From NCBI RefSeq assembly GCF_011064595.1, contig NZ_JAALJI010000003.1:248001-312000 (forward strand): DNA of 64,000 nt, given 5' to 3'. A program made the translations under genes and the position numbers. Below the pieces are notes generated by a model that saw nothing but the letters and a program-made list of their open reading frames with translations, ran no database searches and was not told where the DNA came from. The stretch is from Paludisphaera soli (lineage in GTDB: Bacteria > Planctomycetota > Planctomycetia > Isosphaerales > Isosphaeraceae). This document shows, piece by piece, positions 17,586 to 24,878 of this stretch (positions within the stretch are counted from its first letter, which is position 1; each line of letters opens with the position of its first letter).

Positions 17586-18602
17586 TCAGCGGCCGGCTTC
17601 CTTCCGGGCGGCTTCGGGACGCTGGGAGCTGGCGTCGGGAGGATTCTGAAAGAGCGAGGCGAGGGCTTTCGTCAGCTCGGGGTGACGAAAATCATAGCCG
17701 AGCTGGAGGGCCTTCCGGGGCACGACCCGCTGGCCCTTGGCGATGACGTCGGCGACCTCGCCGAGGGTCAGGCGGAGCAGGATGTCGGGTGGGCCGAACG
17801 GGAGGAAGATCCGCCACGGGGCGTAAGGCTTCCAGAGGGCCCGAGAGAGGGCCCGCGAGAAATCGGCGTTCCGGACGGGGTTCGGGGCGACTCCATTGAT
17901 CGGGCCGCGCGCCTCCGGATTGCGGAGGGCCAGGTCCAGGATGCCGACGATGTCCTCGATGTGGATCCAGCTCATCCATTGGCGGCCTCGCGCGGGGGCG
18001 AGGCCGCCGTTCCCCCCCACCGGGACCCCGGGCCCGATCTTGAACAGGGGCGTCATGATCTTCAACGCCCCGTCGCCGGGCGCCAGGACGACGCCGATCC
18101 TCACGACGGCCCGGCGGACGCCCAGGCCGTCGACCGGCGCCGAGGCGTCCTCCCACTCGCGGCAGACGACCGCCAGGAAATCGGACCCGGACGGCGCCCC
18201 TTCATCGAGTTCCTGATCCTCGCAGGGCCCGTAGTAGCCGATCGCCGATCCCTGCACCAGCACGCGGGGCCGGACCTTCGCGGCCGCGATCGCCGCGACG
18301 ACGTGCTCCGTGCCGTAGACCCGGCTGTCGCGGATCTTTCGCTTCACCCCCGCGTTCCAACGCTCGGCGAACACGTTGTGGCCGACGAGGTTGACCACCG
18401 CGTCGCAGCCGTCGACCGCCTCTTGCCAGTGCCCGGTGGTGGTCGGGTCGCCCTGGACGACTTCGTACTCGCGAGTCGCCGGGTCGCGGCGCAGCGCATC
18501 GGCGCGGCGGGAGACGACGACGGGCGTGTCTCCCGCCGCCAGGAGCCGACGCACCAGATGGCCACCGATGAGCCCGGAACCTCCCGTGATCAAGACGCGC
18601 AT
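17586..18602 (-). CDS. TIGR01777 family epimerase-like SDR protein
   Basis: A 338-residue extended short-chain dehydrogenase/reductase relative. MRVLITGGSGLIGGHLVRRL (1-20) is the NAD(P)-binding TGGxGxxG motif. CDAVVNLVGHNVFAERW and the family blocks VLVQGSAIGYYGPCEDQELDE, RIGVVLAPGDGALKIM and GGRGQWMSWIHIEDI-like (here GRQWMSWIHIEDIVGI) follow. FGPPDILLRLTLGEVADVIAKGQRVVPRKALQLGY is the C-terminal DUF1731 part. The family (E. coli YfcH, human SDR39U1) has no firmly assigned reaction. It is divergent from the alpha/beta hydrolase gene at 18810. Confidence 0.93.
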   Translation of the reverse strand: MRVLITGGSGLIGGHLVRRLLAAGDTPVVVSRRADALRRDPATREYEVVQGDPTTTGHWQEAVDGCDAVVNLVGHNVFAERWNAGVKRKIRDSRVYGTEHVVAAIAAAKVRPRVLVQGSAIGYYGPCEDQELDEGAPSGSDFLAVVCREWEDASAPVDGLGVRRAVVRIGVVLAPGDGALKIMTPLFKIGPGVPVGGNGGLAPARGRQWMSWIHIEDIVGILDLALRNPEARGPINGVAPNPVRNADFSRALSRALWKPYAPWRIFLPFGPPDILLRLTLGEVADVIAKGQRVVPRKALQLGYDFRHPELTKALASLFQNPPDASSQRPEAARKEAGR

Positions 18603-18809: not shown

Positions 18810-19736
18810 ATGGATCCCCTGGAGTCCTCCCCCGCCATGCCCCGCCGCGTGCTCAAGTGGCTCGACCTCCCCCGCGTTCGCCCCCGCCTCGGCGGCGAGG
18901 GCCGCAAGCCCTTGATCCTGGTCAACGGCCTGGCCGAGCAATCCGAGAGCTGGTTCGCCAACGAGCGGAGCCTGGGCCGTCGATTCGACGTCAAGCTGCC
19001 GGAGATCCTCGTCTACGGCGGCGACGCCCTCCACCGATGGATCGACGCCGGCCACGACGTCACGGTCGGCTACCTCGCCCGTCGACTCGAATCCTACCTG
19101 GACGAGTTCGTCCAGCGCCCCCCATACCACTTCGCGGCGTCGAGCCTGGGCTGCCAGGTCGTGCTGACCTACGCCGTCGCCAATCCGGGGAAGGTGGACC
19201 GGCTCGTCCTGATCTGCCCGTCGGGCTTCCACGGCGACGAGAACCTGCCGATGATCGACGGCGTGAGGCGCAGCCGGTACGACAGCCTGGTCGGCTCCGT
19301 CTTCCACGAGGCCCGGTTCGCGGACGAACGCCTGGTCGGGGCCTTCGAGCGCAAATTCCAGGACCGTCGCTGGAAGAAGGGGGTCCTGCGGACGCTTCGC
19401 GGGACGGTGGGCCATTCCGTGGAACACCTGCTGCACCGGGTCGACGTACCGACCCTCCTGATCTGGGGCGCCGAGGACCAGGTGATCTCGGACGTCCCCG
19501 GCTCGATCCGCGCCGGCTCGCGGATCCCGGACGTCCGCCAGGTCGTGATCCCTCGATGCGGACACGCGCCGCAGATCGAAAAATCGAGACTCGTGAATCA
19601 GTTGATCGACCGCTTCCTGATCGATCGGCTCCACGCCCTCCCCCGGGCCCTCGACGTGGGACGCTTCCTGAACGCGGCCGCGGGGACTTCCGCGACCCCG
19701 CGTCTCGCCGCGACTTCCCCCGCCCTCCCCTCCTGA
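18810..19736 (+). CDS. Alpha/beta hydrolase
   Basis: A 308-residue hydrolase. The nucleophile elbow is AASSLGCQV (about 109-117), where the first Gly of GxSxG is Ala. The acid is in IWGAEDQVISDV (about 218-229) and the His in RCGHAPQIEKS (249-259). KPLILVNGLAEQSESWF is the oxyanion strand. A second ATG at 18837 (MPRRVLKW) is an equally plausible start because its upstream GGAG is better placed. Fifteen bases separate it from the methyltransferase gene, so it probably heads a three-gene operon. The substrate is unknown; a lipid or ester substrate is an inference from the neighbours. Confidence 0.85.
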   Translation: MDPLESSPAMPRRVLKWLDLPRVRPRLGGEGRKPLILVNGLAEQSESWFANERSLGRRFDVKLPEILVYGGDALHRWIDAGHDVTVGYLARRLESYLDEFVQRPPYHFAASSLGCQVVLTYAVANPGKVDRLVLICPSGFHGDENLPMIDGVRRSRYDSLVGSVFHEARFADERLVGAFERKFQDRRWKKGVLRTLRGTVGHSVEHLLHRVDVPTLLIWGAEDQVISDVPGSIRAGSRIPDVRQVVIPRCGHAPQIEKSRLVNQLIDRFLIDRLHALPRALDVGRFLNAAAGTSATPRLAATSPALPS

Positions 19737-19751
19737 TCGATCCGGCGGACC

Positions 19752-20339
19752 ATGAGCGACTTCACCCTGTTCCTCGGCAAGTTCCTGCGGCAAGGGACCG
19801 CGATCGCGAGCCTCGCCCCCAGCAGCCGTTGGCTCTCGCGGGCGACCGTCTCGAACATCGACTGGACGCGCCCCAACGTGGTCGTGGAGCTTGGCGCCGG
19901 CACCGGGCCGATCACCCGCGTCCTGGCCGAGCGGGCCGCCGGCCGCAGCCGCATCCTGGTGGTGGAGCGCGACCCCGATTTCGCGAGGATCCTCCGCGAT
20001 CGGCACGGCGACCATCCCGACGTCGAGGTGGTCGAGGGGGACGTGCGCGACCTGGATGCGATGCTCCGAGATCGGGGCGTCGCGCAGGTCGACCACATCG
20101 TCTCCGGGCTGCCGACCCCGTCGTTCCCGAAGGAATCGCAGCTCGACCTCTTCCGGGTCGTGCGGCGGGTCTTGAAACCCGAGGGGTCGTTCAATCAGAT
20201 CACGGAGATGCCGCTCGTGTATCGGGGGCTCTATCGCCGCTTCTTCGAAGAGGTGCGATTCGTCTTCGAGCCCCGCAACTTCCCCCCGGCCGGGGTCTAC
20301 CTCTGTCGACGGATCAAGCCGGCGGCCGACCGGTCATGA
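19752..20339 (+). CDS. PmtA-like phospholipid N-methyltransferase
   Basis: A 195-residue class I SAM-dependent methyltransferase. The opening FTLFLGKFLRQGTAIASLAPSS resembles the membrane-contacting N-terminus of Rhizobium-type phosphatidylethanolamine methyltransferase. SAM motif I is VVVELGAGTGPITRVL (residues ~43-58). Motif II ends in VVERD, the acidic motif is VVEGDVRD, and motif IV is VSGLPTPSFP, corresponding to the GLPF block of PmtA. It probably methylates a phospholipid or other amine-bearing lipid at the membrane, but rRNA-methylase relatives share the fold. Its stop overlaps the GH3 start (ATGA), indicating translational coupling. Confidence 0.8.
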   Translation: MSDFTLFLGKFLRQGTAIASLAPSSRWLSRATVSNIDWTRPNVVVELGAGTGPITRVLAERAAGRSRILVVERDPDFARILRDRHGDHPDVEVVEGDVRDLDAMLRDRGVAQVDHIVSGLPTPSFPKESQLDLFRVVRRVLKPEGSFNQITEMPLVYRGLYRRFFEEVRFVFEPRNFPPAGVYLCRRIKPAADRS

Positions 20340-21931
20340 TCGGGGAGTCCTGGCTCCCGGCCCTCGCCGGCTCGGCCCCGGCTAGACGACTGGTCAACGC
20401 CGGCTTTCATCTGCATGCAAAGCGTCGTATGGGGCGGCTCGCGAGCCTCGACCCGGTCCGCGAACAGCAGCGGATCCTGCGGCGCCTGGTCGACCACGCT
20501 CGGGGCACGCGCTTCGGCCGGGACCATGGGTTCGACGCCATCCGGACGGTCGAGAACTACCAACGACGCGTCCCGATCCGCACCTATGAGTCTCTCTGGG
20601 ACGAATACCTGCGCGACCGATATCCCGTCTTCGAGGACCTGACCTGGCCCGGCCGAATCCCCTACCTCGCGCTGACGAGCGGAACCACGCAGGGGGCGAC
20701 CAAGTACATCCCGGTCTCGCGCGAGATGGTCCGCTCGAACCGCAAGGCCGCCCAGACGGTGACGGCCGCCCATCTGGCCTCCCGGCCCGATTCGAAGCTC
20801 TTCCTGGGTCGGGTGTTCTTCCTCGGCGGGACGATCAGGCAGGAGGAGCCCGCCCCCGGCGTGCGGCAAGGCGACCTGAGCGGCGTGGCGGCGATCGAGC
20901 TTCCTCCGGCGCTCAGGCCCTACACGTTCCCGCCCCTCGACCTGGCGTTGGAGTCGGACTGGGACCGGAAGCTGGCGCGACTGGCCGAACGCAGCCTCGA
21001 TCGCCGGATCACGCTGGTCAGCGGCGTGCCGAGCTGGCTGCTCATGCTCTTCCGGCGCGTGCTGGAGTTGGCCGACAAATCGACGATCGCCGAGGTCTGG
21101 CCGCACCTGGAGATGGTCGTACACGGCGGGGTCAAGTTCGACCCCTACGAGGCCGCTTTCCGCGAGGCGATCGGCTCGGACGCGGTGCGACTCCAGGAGA
21201 CCTACCCCTGCTCCGAGGGCTTCATCGCGTTCGGAGACGCCGAGACGGGATTGCTCCGGCTCCTCGTCGACCACGGGATCTTTTACGAATTCGTCCCGAT
21301 CGCCGATTACGACGCGAACCCTGACGCCGCCGACCGCTGCTGGCTGGGCGACGCGAAGATCGGAGTGGACTACGTGCTCGTCGTCTCGACCTGCGCGGGC
21401 ATGTGGTCCCACGTCATCGGCGACACGATCCGCTTCGAGTCGCTCGACCCTCCCCTGCTCCGCTTCACGGGACGCACCAAGTACTCGCTCTCGGCGTTCG
21501 GTGAGCACCTGATTCAGGAGGAAGTCGAGGCCGCGCTCGCCGCAGCCGCCGAGGCCACCGGCTCATCGATCCGGGAATGGCACGTCGGCCCGACGTTCAG
21601 CGGAACGCTGGGGTTCCATCAATATGTGATCGAATTCCAGCAGCTTGCGCCGGACCTGTCGCGGTACCGCTCTCTCCTCGACGAGGTCCTGCGGCGACGC
21701 AACGCCGACTACGACGCCCACCGCAATCCCGGCTCCGGCATCCCCGCACCGGCGATCCTCGCGGCCCGCCCGGGGGCTTTCGAGGGCTGGATGCGGCGGC
21801 GCGGAAAGCTCGGCGGCCAGAACAAGGTCCCGCGCATGGACGCGGGGGGCGCCGCGACGCGGGACCTCGTCGACTACCTCCGCGGCGCGGAACTGGTCGT
21901 CGACGAGGTTCGGCCGGGCGATCCCCCCTGA
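20336..21931 (+). CDS. GH3-family acyl-adenylate-forming enzyme
   Basis: A 531-residue protein of the GH3 family, best known from plants for conjugating jasmonate or auxin to amino acids through acyl-adenylates. Visible blocks are YLALTSGTTQGATKYIPVSREM (ATP-binding motif), GVPSWLLMLFRRVLE, YPCSEGFIAFGD (second nucleotide motif), FYEFVPI and FTGRTKYSLSAFGEHL (C-terminal hinge). Bacterial members are common but mostly uncharacterised. It should activate a carboxylic acid with ATP and pass it to an amine or thiol. The ATG at 20336 overlaps the methyltransferase stop. A stand-alone acyl carrier protein gene ends only 24 bases away on the opposite strand. Confidence 0.88.
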   Translation: MIGESWLPALAGSAPARRLVNAGFHLHAKRRMGRLASLDPVREQQRILRRLVDHARGTRFGRDHGFDAIRTVENYQRRVPIRTYESLWDEYLRDRYPVFEDLTWPGRIPYLALTSGTTQGATKYIPVSREMVRSNRKAAQTVTAAHLASRPDSKLFLGRVFFLGGTIRQEEPAPGVRQGDLSGVAAIELPPALRPYTFPPLDLALESDWDRKLARLAERSLDRRITLVSGVPSWLLMLFRRVLELADKSTIAEVWPHLEMVVHGGVKFDPYEAAFREAIGSDAVRLQETYPCSEGFIAFGDAETGLLRLLVDHGIFYEFVPIADYDANPDAADRCWLGDAKIGVDYVLVVSTCAGMWSHVIGDTIRFESLDPPLLRFTGRTKYSLSAFGEHLIQEEVEAALAAAAEATGSSIREWHVGPTFSGTLGFHQYVIEFQQLAPDLSRYRSLLDEVLRRRNADYDAHRNPGSGIPAPAILAARPGAFEGWMRRRGKLGGQNKVPRMDAGGAATRDLVDYLRGAELVVDEVRPGDPP

Positions 21932-21955
21932 TCCCTCACGCGGCGTCCCGGCCCG

Positions 21956-22210
21956 TCAGGCGGCCTGCTTCTTGTCGGCCACGAGGTCGGCGATCTGGCG
22001 GATGGAATCCAGGTGCTCGACGCCCGCCTCGTGGGCCTCGACGGTGATCCCGAACCGCTCCTCAAGGTAGACGACCAGCTTCAGGGTCGTGATCGAGTCG
22101 AGGATGCCGCCGGTGATGAGCGGGGTGGAATCGGTCAGCTCGGAGGGATCCTCGCCGGGGAGGAACTCGTTCAGGATGAACGAGTGGACGTCCTTCTGGA
22201 TATCTTCCAT
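21956..22210 (-). CDS. Stand-alone acyl carrier protein
   Basis: An 84-residue acidic protein with the carrier-protein motif GGILDSITTLKLV. Ser39 of the DSI motif would accept 4'-phosphopantetheine. Helices on both sides (DVHSFILNEFLPGE; LDSIRQIADLVADKK) fit the four-helix carrier fold. There is no fatty-acid synthase gene nearby, so it is likely a specialised carrier and not the housekeeping AcpP. It lies 63 bases downstream of the phosphodiesterase gene on the same strand and converges on the GH3 gene. Carrier of an acyl group made or used by these neighbours is an inference. Confidence 0.93.
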   Translation of the reverse strand: MEDIQKDVHSFILNEFLPGEDPSELTDSTPLITGGILDSITTLKLVVYLEERFGITVEAHEAGVEHLDSIRQIADLVADKKQAA

Positions 22211-22273
22211 GAAATCCTCTTGTTGAGTCGGGGTGCGGGGAACTTACGGGACGGGGGATTCCTTCGCGGGTCT

Positions 22274-23851
22274 TCACTCGACGCCCGCCGCGACGACGTC
22301 GCCGACGGGCTCGGCCTCGGTCGCGATGCGGGGCGGCGTCTCGGAGCGATGAACGATGATGGTCGTCTCGAAGGCCTCCTGGAGGACCCGGCCTTCCATG
22401 TATCGGGGGACGTCCAGGCCGAGCAACGCCAGCGACGTCGGCGCCAGGTCCGGAAGCTGGGCTTCGAGGCGACGGCCCGGCTGGACGCCCGGCGCGTCGA
22501 TCGCGACGACGCCGTTGAGCCAGTGGGTCGCCGGGAGTCCGGGATCGGGCCGGAGGATCGTGTTGCGGTAACGCTCCGACCACTTGGCCTGGGCCTGATA
22601 ACCGTCGGCGGAGAGCGCGAAGACGTCGGGCATGCCCTCGCGGGCCGGGTCCACGTCGAGGCGATCGGCCGTCGCGTAGACGTCCGCAAACAGCCTCTCG
22701 CCGCGCTCGGGGTCTCGGGCGTCTCGCAGGAGGGCGACGACCTCGTCGAGGGCGCGGTCGGCCGACGCGCCGGAGACGGCGTCGCGGTTCAGGAAGACGT
22801 TGCCGCAAAGCTGGCCGAAGGGGGCGAAGGCGAGGGTGCGGCCCCAGTCGCACGAGATCTGGCCGTCGATCGGGCGCACCTTCGCTGGGGCCGACGCGCC
22901 CGGCTCGCGCAGGGCCCGCCATCGGCGGAGCCGCTCCAGGACCCGGATCGCGCGATAGCGGAACCGCGTCCCATAGACTCTCGTCCGCTGGAGGCCCGCG
23001 GCCCGGAGCATCCCGTTGACGTTGACCAGGGAGCGGCAGGGGCCGAAGCCGTGGTCGGAGGCCACGACGACCGCCGCGTCGCGATCCGCGGCCAGTTCCA
23101 GGAGCCGGCCGATCGAGTCGTCGAGCGCCCGGACGCAGCGCTCGACCGCGTCGGTGAAACCGGCCTCACGGAGCCCGGTGTCGTCCACGTCGAAGTAGGG
23201 CCACATCCGATGCTGGAGGCTGTCCAGGTTGTGATAGTGGACCATCATCGCGGTCCAGTCGACCTGCTGATCGGCCTTGCCGGCCGCGTCGGCCTGGGCC
23301 CGGAAGATCCTCGCGCAGCGGTCGGCCTGCTCGGCGGCCTCCTCGGCCGTGCGAGGGCGTCGCTTCCAAACGAGCTTGTTCGTGTAGTCCGGGACTTCCA
23401 GTCGGAGCCGACGGCCGAACTCGGGGCACTGGTCGAAGGCCCGGACGGGGTCGGGGGCGTCGGCACCGGCGACGAACAGGCCGCGGACCGGCGGCGCGGG
23501 ATAGGTGAGCGGCAGCCCCAGGCTGACCACCGAGCCCCCCAGGCCGCTGACGATCTCCCAGAGGGTCGGCACCCGGACGGTCGTCGCGTCGTGCTCGCGG
23601 ACCGTCCGGTCCGAGTGGTCCAGGTAGTTGAAGTCGTGGACGCCGTGGGTGAGGGGCGTGCACCCGGTGCTGAACGAAGTCCAGGCCACCGGCGTCACCA
23701 TGGGGTCGGTCGACCTCAGGTCGCCGACGGCGCAACGTCGCCAGAGGCTCGCCAGGTTCGGCGCCCACCCGCGATCGAAGAGCGGATCGAGGATGGCGCG
23801 CGTCCCCCCGTCGAGTCCTACGAAGAGCACGCGCGATGGAATCGTCGCCAT
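22274..23851 (-). CDS. Alkaline-phosphatase-superfamily phosphodiesterase
   Basis: A 525-residue protein of the type I phosphodiesterase/nucleotide pyrophosphatase branch. I start it at the ATG at 23851 (MATIPSRVLFVGLDGGT); an ATG nine codons earlier is possible. VLFVGLDGG (8-16) gives the first metal-binding Asp, PVAWTSFSTG supplies the nucleophile Thr, HYHNLDSLQHR gives Asp/His ligands, and VVASDHGFGPCRS gives the second Asp-His pair. The enzyme should hydrolyse a phosphodiester or transfer a phospho group. No signal peptide is evident. It sits upstream of the acyl carrier protein gene, so a phosphopantetheine- or lipid-linked substrate is conceivable. Confidence 0.87.
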   Translation of the reverse strand: MATIPSRVLFVGLDGGTRAILDPLFDRGWAPNLASLWRRCAVGDLRSTDPMVTPVAWTSFSTGCTPLTHGVHDFNYLDHSDRTVREHDATTVRVPTLWEIVSGLGGSVVSLGLPLTYPAPPVRGLFVAGADAPDPVRAFDQCPEFGRRLRLEVPDYTNKLVWKRRPRTAEEAAEQADRCARIFRAQADAAGKADQQVDWTAMMVHYHNLDSLQHRMWPYFDVDDTGLREAGFTDAVERCVRALDDSIGRLLELAADRDAAVVVASDHGFGPCRSLVNVNGMLRAAGLQRTRVYGTRFRYRAIRVLERLRRWRALREPGASAPAKVRPIDGQISCDWGRTLAFAPFGQLCGNVFLNRDAVSGASADRALDEVVALLRDARDPERGERLFADVYATADRLDVDPAREGMPDVFALSADGYQAQAKWSERYRNTILRPDPGLPATHWLNGVVAIDAPGVQPGRRLEAQLPDLAPTSLALLGLDVPRYMEGRVLQEAFETTIIVHRSETPPRIATEAEPVGDVVAAGVE

Positions 23852-24048: not shown

Positions 24049-24131
24049 GCTCGACCGCCGGCATCGGGATCCTCCGTGCGCCGTCGGGCGAGGTCGGACC
24101 CGTGTCCCCGTGTCCCCGAGGTGCCAGGCTC

Positions 24132-24878
24132 ATGACCGCACGGACGCCGACAGCCGCCTCCTGCTCGCGCAGGACGATGATGCTCGCGGGGCTGTCCTCC
24201 GCCCTCCTGATGGCGGGGCCGGGTTGCGCGGGGAAGCGCCTGCGCAGGGAGGCCGACCGCGTCCCCGTCCGCGGCATGATCGACCCCGAGCAGGCTCGCG
24301 AGCTGGACAAGACCACGATGCCGAAATACGTGGTCGAACCGCCCGACGAGCTGGACGTCGCGATCAAGCCCGTGCCGGCCGACTGGAGCCCGGCGTCCTT
24401 CGTCGTCCAGTCCGACGGCCTGGTCGACCTTGGCCTCTACGGCGACGTCTACGTGGTCGGCCTGACGCTCGACCAGGTGGAGGAGAAGATCGCCCAGCAG
24501 CTCACGCTCGACGCGCTCCGGCGCGGTCAGAAGCCGTCGGAGCCCTATCGGGTGTCGGTCCGCCTGAGCAACTCCCAGAGCAAATACTATTACGTCCTCG
24601 GGACGGTGGGCACCGAGGGAAAGTTCCCGATCAAGGGGAATGAGACGGCGCTCGACGCCATCCTTCAGGCGGGGCTCAAGTCCAACAGCTTGCCGGAGAA
24701 AGCCTACCTCGTCCGGCCCCACCCGGCCGGCGAGCCCGACCAGGTCCTCCGCATCGATTGGTGCGCGATCAAGGAACGGGGCGACACGCTCACCAACTAC
24801 CAGCTCTTCCCCGGCGACCGCATCGTGGTCCCCGGCACCCGCCCGCCCAGCCTGATCGCGACCTTGCTGGGCCGCTGA
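24132..24878 (+). CDS. Polysaccharide export-like (Wza-type) lipoprotein
   Basis: A 248-residue protein starting at the ATG at 24132. A signal segment (TMMLAGLSSALLMAGPGC) ends in a Cys with an imperfect lipobox. KYVVEPPDELDVAIKPVPADW, VQSDGLVDLGLYGDVYVVGLTLDQVEEKIAQQL and YYYVLGTVGTEGKFPIKGNETALDAILQAGL match the Poly_export and SLBB modules. LFPGDRIVVPGT closes it. Such proteins usually form the outer-membrane exit for capsular or exopolysaccharide. No glycosyltransferase or Wzc-like gene is adjacent, so its role here is unknown. An ATG at 24102 is possible but would place ten extra residues before the signal. Confidence 0.82.
   Translation: MTARTPTAASCSRRTMMLAGLSSALLMAGPGCAGKRLRREADRVPVRGMIDPEQARELDKTTMPKYVVEPPDELDVAIKPVPADWSPASFVVQSDGLVDLGLYGDVYVVGLTLDQVEEKIAQQLTLDALRRGQKPSEPYRVSVRLSNSQSKYYYVLGTVGTEGKFPIKGNETALDAILQAGLKSNSLPEKAYLVRPHPAGEPDQVLRIDWCAIKERGDTLTNYQLFPGDRIVVPGTRPPSLIATLLGR

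Follow-up and report, generated by a model that had tools for sequence, protein, structure and literature searches.

Ornithine-lipid synthesis in planctomycetes

The closest described system is the olsI-olsG-olsH pathway of Singulisphaera acidiphila, set out in the main text of Rivera-Najera et al. 2025 (PMC12493201). There, OlsH forms N-acyl ornithine from ornithine, a free fatty acid, ATP and magnesium, independently of acyl carrier protein (ACP) and coenzyme A (CoA), with free hydroxypalmitate as a poor substrate; OlsI attaches the second acyl chain in extracts, OlsH and OlsI together form ornithine lipid in Escherichia coli extracts, and the acyl donor of OlsI is left open and drawn as 'X' in the published scheme. 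According to the same text, deletion of olsH in S. acidiphila abolished trimethylornithine lipid, and mutation of two OlsH serines indicated that S115 is essential and S293 dispensable; term searches of it brought up neither the carrier gene described below nor a phosphodiesterase. The stretch analyzed here (the window) covers 64,000 nucleotides of Paludisphaera soli (contig NZ_JAALJI010000003.1, positions 248,001 to 312,000) and holds the same three genes on its plus strand, facing, on the minus strand, genes for a stand-alone carrier protein and an alkaline-phosphatase-superfamily type I phosphodiesterase (Table 1).

We consider it likely that these are two separate units placed tail to tail, olsI-olsG-olsH (olsIGH) making an N-methylated ornithine lipid, and a carrier and phosphodiesterase unit with an independent role; the inheritance of the carrier and of the phosphodiesterase suggests a unit distinct from olsIGH. 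The first-pass annotation of the window had suggested that the genes of both strands might form one pathway to an acylated lipid. For the GH3 enzyme, the methyltransferase and the hydrolase this was right, and matches the published pathway, so that the partners of this bacterial GH3 enzyme, described at that stage as poorly known, here belong to an experimentally established lipid pathway. For the carrier and the phosphodiesterase it is not supported as stated, since the published OlsH works without ACP, the carrier and OlsH each occur alone, and 16 of 44 assessable genomes have no phosphodiesterase next to the carrier.

The olsI-olsG-olsH operon

Judged by its protein families, the plus-strand unit is the operon for a methylated ornithine membrane lipid already published for planctomycetes. 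The OlsI, OlsG and OlsH equivalog models all exceed their cut-offs, in an operon-like run with a 15-base gap between olsI and olsG (19737-19751) and an ATGA overlap of olsG and olsH (20336-20339). The OlsH of the window is 63% identical to that of S. acidiphila (331/526 positions), and S115 and S293 are conserved in the alignment at identical numbers. By orthology from the S. acidiphila proteins, for which these activities have been shown, we infer that OlsH would use ATP to activate a fatty acid, presumably through an acyl-adenylate like that of plant GH3 enzymes, and would then couple the acyl group to the alpha-amine of ornithine; the second acyl chain would be attached by OlsI through an ester bond, and OlsG would methylate the delta-nitrogen to give the N-methylated ornithine lipid. 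The earlier description of the methyltransferase as PmtA-like holds at the level of the superfamily; its identification as PmtA, a phospholipid N-methyltransferase, was rejected, as it reaches 64.5 bits in the PmtA model (cut-off 250) and 366 bits in the OlsG model (cut-off 350).

Relatives of OlsH were collected in a scan with one genome per species, which gave 288 relatives, and the best 80 of the 288 loci were kept. OlsH is at least 51% identical in 24 of these 80 (23 of them planctomycete by title and one titled just 'bacterium'), and in all but two of the 24 (22/24) olsH is preceded by olsI and olsG: L009 stops at a contig end, and in L026 the 3.2 kb of sequence upstream of the OlsH-like gene (L026:3237-4787) contain neither gene. 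In the flanks of the remaining 56 of the best 80 loci, which come from Proteobacteria, Bacteroidota and others and vary in flank length, nothing matched OlsI, OlsG, the carrier or the phosphodiesterase at 1e-4. A second copy of OlsH is present in one genome, on a separate contig (G043:C366:241-1788). As a synteny control, the gene for a short-chain dehydrogenase/reductase (SDR) upstream of olsI is kept in 21 of the 22 loci with enough flank; we know of no tie of this SDR to the ornithine-lipid pathway, and therefore adjacency alone proves little.

Presence and absence of the carrier and of OlsH

In 45 genomes of the family that contains S. acidiphila (G037), which we take to be Isosphaeraceae, the carrier is present in all 45 (E up to 1e-12) and OlsH in 40 (E up to 1e-30). 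At the latter threshold no OlsH was found in G004, G005, G011, G027 and G035, which are 93%, 99%, 99%, 77% and 64% complete, respectively; OlsG was not found in these five genomes, nor in G006. A survey of the class covered 198 genomes at least 85% complete (OlsH, E up to 1e-60; carrier, E up to 1e-10), with the OlsH and carrier searches, run under like settings and with the non-matching genomes partly listed, assumed to cover identical genomes. OlsH occurs in 68 of the 198, comprising 33 of the 36 Isosphaeraceae and 35 others, and the carrier in 43, namely every one of the 36 Isosphaeraceae plus seven members of a single other genus, where it is 35-36% identical and none has OlsH. In three genomes at least 85% complete the carrier is present and OlsH was not found; conversely, none of the 35 genomes with OlsH from the rest of the class gave a carrier match at E up to 1e-10. 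The PF13444 domain, which we take as a marker of OlsB-type enzymes, was searched in six genomes; an OlsB-type route in the OlsH-less G004, G005 and G011 was rejected, as none of them gave a match. The only match was in G055, outside the family and with OlsH (L153, G055:C1:5289672-5289977), which may have two routes to N-acyl amino acids.

The carriers of G004, G005 and G011, at 135.3, 131.7 and 141.9 bits, also pass NF052616 (cut-off 130), the model behind the family assignment of the window carrier; since no OlsH was detected in these three genomes, the name 'ornithine lipid biosynthesis ACP' claims more than the evidence behind it covers, and the pattern of presence and absence shows that it reaches genomes without detected OlsH or OlsG. 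The phosphopantetheine serine of the LDS motif is kept in all 46 aligned carrier rows, those of the OlsH-less genomes included. A housekeeping ACP was also considered as the identity of the window carrier and rejected, with the regular ACP encoded on a different contig (C101, 113.1 bits; cut-off 70.45).

Neighborhood of the carrier

Neighbors of the carrier were counted with tblastn in 44 other genomes and the source genome, leaving out a second, partial carrier of G013 (L132). On the side of the carrier where the phosphodiesterase stands, 40 of 41 assessable genomes have a gene for a polysaccharide-export protein; the one without it is G005, and four contigs end too early. This tie of the carrier is more constant than that to OlsH (26/36). 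A phosphodiesterase is found directly beside the carrier, on the same strand, in 28 of 44 assessable genomes; 16 are without it, and one was not assessable. In ten genomes the carrier is flanked by 5.5 kb or more without olsH, three of these genomes being without any OlsH and seven having it elsewhere; the export protein is nevertheless kept in seven of the eight that can be assessed, and a phosphodiesterase-like neighbor in eight of the ten, three of them divergent. In G004 the SDR, a kinase and another conserved gene upstream are followed by the carrier, the phosphodiesterase and the export protein, with olsIGH absent between them, and G005 is arranged alike, its SDR being followed by the carrier and phosphodiesterase. 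In G006 the carrier stands within a same-strand row that includes three phosphodiesterase genes and a sulfatase-family gene (L130:605-8247).

Several points weigh against the separation of the two units. The curated name of NF052616 is 'ornithine lipid biosynthesis acyl carrier protein', and the window carrier exceeds the cut-off of 130 with 169.2 bits. The olsH and carrier genes are convergent neighbors in 26 of 36 assessable genomes, with OlsH ending within 3.7 kb (nine further genomes have too little flank, and a 5.5 kb rule applied to all gives 22/32), and conserved neighbors can share a pathway even if one of them is dispensable. Beyond the family, genomes with OlsH could rely on a different ACP or have a carrier too distant for the search. 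Moreover, G005 has no export protein nearby, and in a phosphodiesterase tree the tips of the olsIGH-less G004 (0.54) and G005 (0.93) are long compared with the median of 0.19, which could mean relaxed constraint, similar lengths being seen in G015 (0.54) and G026 (0.63), both with OlsH.

The carrier might accordingly be the donor from which OlsI takes its acyl group, the 'X' of the scheme, or the supplier of 3-hydroxyacyl chains for lyso-ornithine lipid, in one pathway with olsIGH. The donor left open for OlsI and the poor use of free hydroxypalmitate by OlsH, both as given in the main text of PMC12493201, are in agreement with such a place in the pathway, as are the NCBIfam name and the convergent placement. 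Against a place in the lipid pathway stand the use of free fatty acids by OlsH without ACP and the activity of OlsI in E. coli extract without the carrier, with E. coli ACP and CoA present (same source); the retention of the carrier in genomes that yielded no OlsH and no OlsG and its absence from the search results of the 35 other OlsH genomes; the equal conservation of the SDR, which makes the adjacency alone weak; and the ranking of the solved relatives of the carrier, in which peptidyl carrier proteins come first (2my5, 3.9e-11) and D-alanyl and acyl carriers follow. We regard this explanation as unlikely, and it is retained at that level because of the carrier/olsH adjacency, the NCBIfam name and the long phosphodiesterase tips of G004 and G005.

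The adjacency may instead reflect synteny simply inherited in a slowly rearranging family, the carrier, the phosphodiesterase and olsIGH being unrelated. The conservation of the SDR on the far side of the locus, and of the kinase in fewer genomes, would fit such a history, and so would the position of the carrier 2.8 kb from olsH in S. acidiphila and about 1.5 Mb from it, on one contig, in G012. The links of the carrier to the export protein (7/8) and to the phosphodiesterase (8/10), however, mostly persist in genomes without the link to olsH, and a part of the neighborhood is therefore held together; inherited synteny as the whole explanation seems rather improbable to us.

The phosphodiesterase

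The earlier assignment of this protein to the alkaline phosphatase superfamily is confirmed by a PF01663 match over residues 8-427 of 525 and by the presence of D14, T58, D210, H214, D266, H267 and H443, which we take to be the catalytic metal and nucleophile residues of the superfamily. The protein stays under the cut-offs of the NCBIfam models, its sequence matches phosphonoacetate hydrolase best among solved proteins, if weakly, and no signal peptide is evident by eye. An AlphaFold2 model from eight rows (the window and seven of seven orthologues in related loci) had a mean predicted local distance difference test score of 49.5, too low for a fold search. In the unrooted tree, with the long branches L126, L139 and L131 flagged, the 28 carrier-adjacent phosphodiesterases fall on one side of one branch and 11 paralogues on the other (support 100/98). 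All 11 paralogues, and all 24 carrier neighbors that do not belong to genus g18, have the seven residues intact; the four g18 neighbors, at 32-38% identity, do not. In these four (L126-L129), still beside the carrier, the first Asp is lost in three of the three rows that show it and the Thr in three of four; L126, 32% identical and less surely aligned, has lost all seven.

Enzymes that strip the phosphopantetheine arm from carriers exist: AcpH is one of them. By analogy, the phosphodiesterase might strip the arm from the adjoining carrier and so control its activity, as PptH does on other carriers (PMC8557913). Its position directly beside the carrier on the same strand in 28 of 44 genomes, with four divergent, at a distance of 63 bases in the window, the common branch of these 28 enzymes and the intact residues in all 24 neighbors outside g18 would agree with such a function, while the 16 genomes without it beside the carrier, the loss of some or all of the named residues in the g18 neighbors, a 40-44% identical paralogue elsewhere in most of the 45 genomes and the weak match to phosphonoacetate hydrolase speak against it; on balance, arm removal appears quite improbable. 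A literature search gave no evident alkaline-phosphatase-superfamily carrier phosphodiesterase among the matches listed.

In summary, the separation of the carrier and phosphodiesterase from olsIGH remains the favored interpretation, and together with the facing export protein they would form an Isosphaeraceae unit with its own role. The carrier would most likely bear an acyl or amino-acyl group used in an envelope process, in which the phosphodiesterase would act on a phosphodiester in the cytosol. More tentatively, as a possibility that we place short of probable, the three may constitute an undescribed Isosphaeraceae envelope system outside ornithine-lipid synthesis, in which a peptidyl-carrier-like protein would be controlled by an enzyme of the alkaline phosphatase superfamily and for which the database name of the carrier would be wrong.

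Arrangement of the locus

Coordinates and spacing were taken directly from the window sequence and confirm the five genes, their placement and their spacing as first annotated. All five proteins match families above curated cut-offs, so the genes are real and not chance open reading frames. The olsH and carrier genes are separated by 24 bases (21932-21955), and the export protein gene is divergent from the carrier/phosphodiesterase pair. The export protein scores below the cut-off of every NCBIfam model that it matched; its Poly_export score was obtained on the longer frame 24102-24878, and its start is lipobox-like, judged by eye. A scan of 21800-22300 found no promoter, and a terminator scan of the same interval gave one minus-strand terminator-like site, inside olsH, with 0.3 expected by chance.

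Table 1. Genes of the locus, with window coordinates and best family matches
Gene or product	Position	Strand	Family match (cut-off)
TIGR01777-family SDR, upstream of olsI	17586..18602	-	TIGR01777, 280.9 bits (207.35)
olsI, alpha/beta-hydrolase-fold O-acyltransferase	18810..19736	+	NCBIfam NF052614, 447.5 bits (385); Abhydrolase_1
olsG, ornithine lipid N-methyltransferase	19752..20339	+	NCBIfam NF041658, 366 bits (350)
olsH, GH3-type lyso-ornithine lipid synthetase	20336..21931	+	NCBIfam NF052613, 988.5 bits (620)
Stand-alone carrier protein, phosphopantetheine site GGILDSI	21956..22210	-	NCBIfam NF052616, 169.2 bits (130)
Alkaline-phosphatase-superfamily type I phosphodiesterase	22274..23851	-	PF01663 Phosphodiest, 102.6 bits (23), residues 8-427
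Polysaccharide-export (OPX/Wza-type) protein	24132..24878	+	PF02563 Poly_export, 43.7 bits (28)

A nearby GH3-carrier operon

A second GH3 gene lies about 43 kb downstream of olsH, 1.4 kb beyond the end of the window, in a run at L154:5385-13171 (G000:C121:313384-321170, the window ending at C121:312000). Its product is 26-28% identical to OlsH in two stretches and reaches 96.3 bits in the OlsH model (cut-off 620). The same-strand run comprises this GH3 gene, an alpha/beta hydrolase, two FabF-like synthases, two FabZ-like dehydratases and a carrier protein, and is a better GH3-carrier operon than the olsH locus. A relative of the second GH3 enzyme occurs in 141 of the 198 genomes of the class (E up to 1e-60). 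The hydrolase and the first synthase adjoin it in 20 of 24 short loci, all from the family; among 18 hand-picked longer loci (11-17 kb), the seven-gene order is complete in eight, and ten have the GH3 gene without that order. A narrow literature search showed no description of this operon among the matches listed.

Comparison with known systems

The phosphodiesterase resembles the type I phosphodiesterases/nucleotide pyrophosphatases of PF01663 in the extent of the match and in the superfamily residues, and differs in that it fits no NCBIfam model at its cut-off. Among stand-alone peptidyl and D-alanyl carriers (2my5, PltL, DltC) the window carrier finds its nearest solved sequences, with a weak match to DltC; it differs from DltC in remaining below the cut-off of the DltC model (30.9 against 68 bits). 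With the OlsH-OlsI-OlsG pathway of S. acidiphila the locus shares the three genes in identical order and an OlsH in which both tested serines are kept, whereas the carrier gene, only 24 bases from olsH in the window, is 2.8 kb away from it in S. acidiphila.

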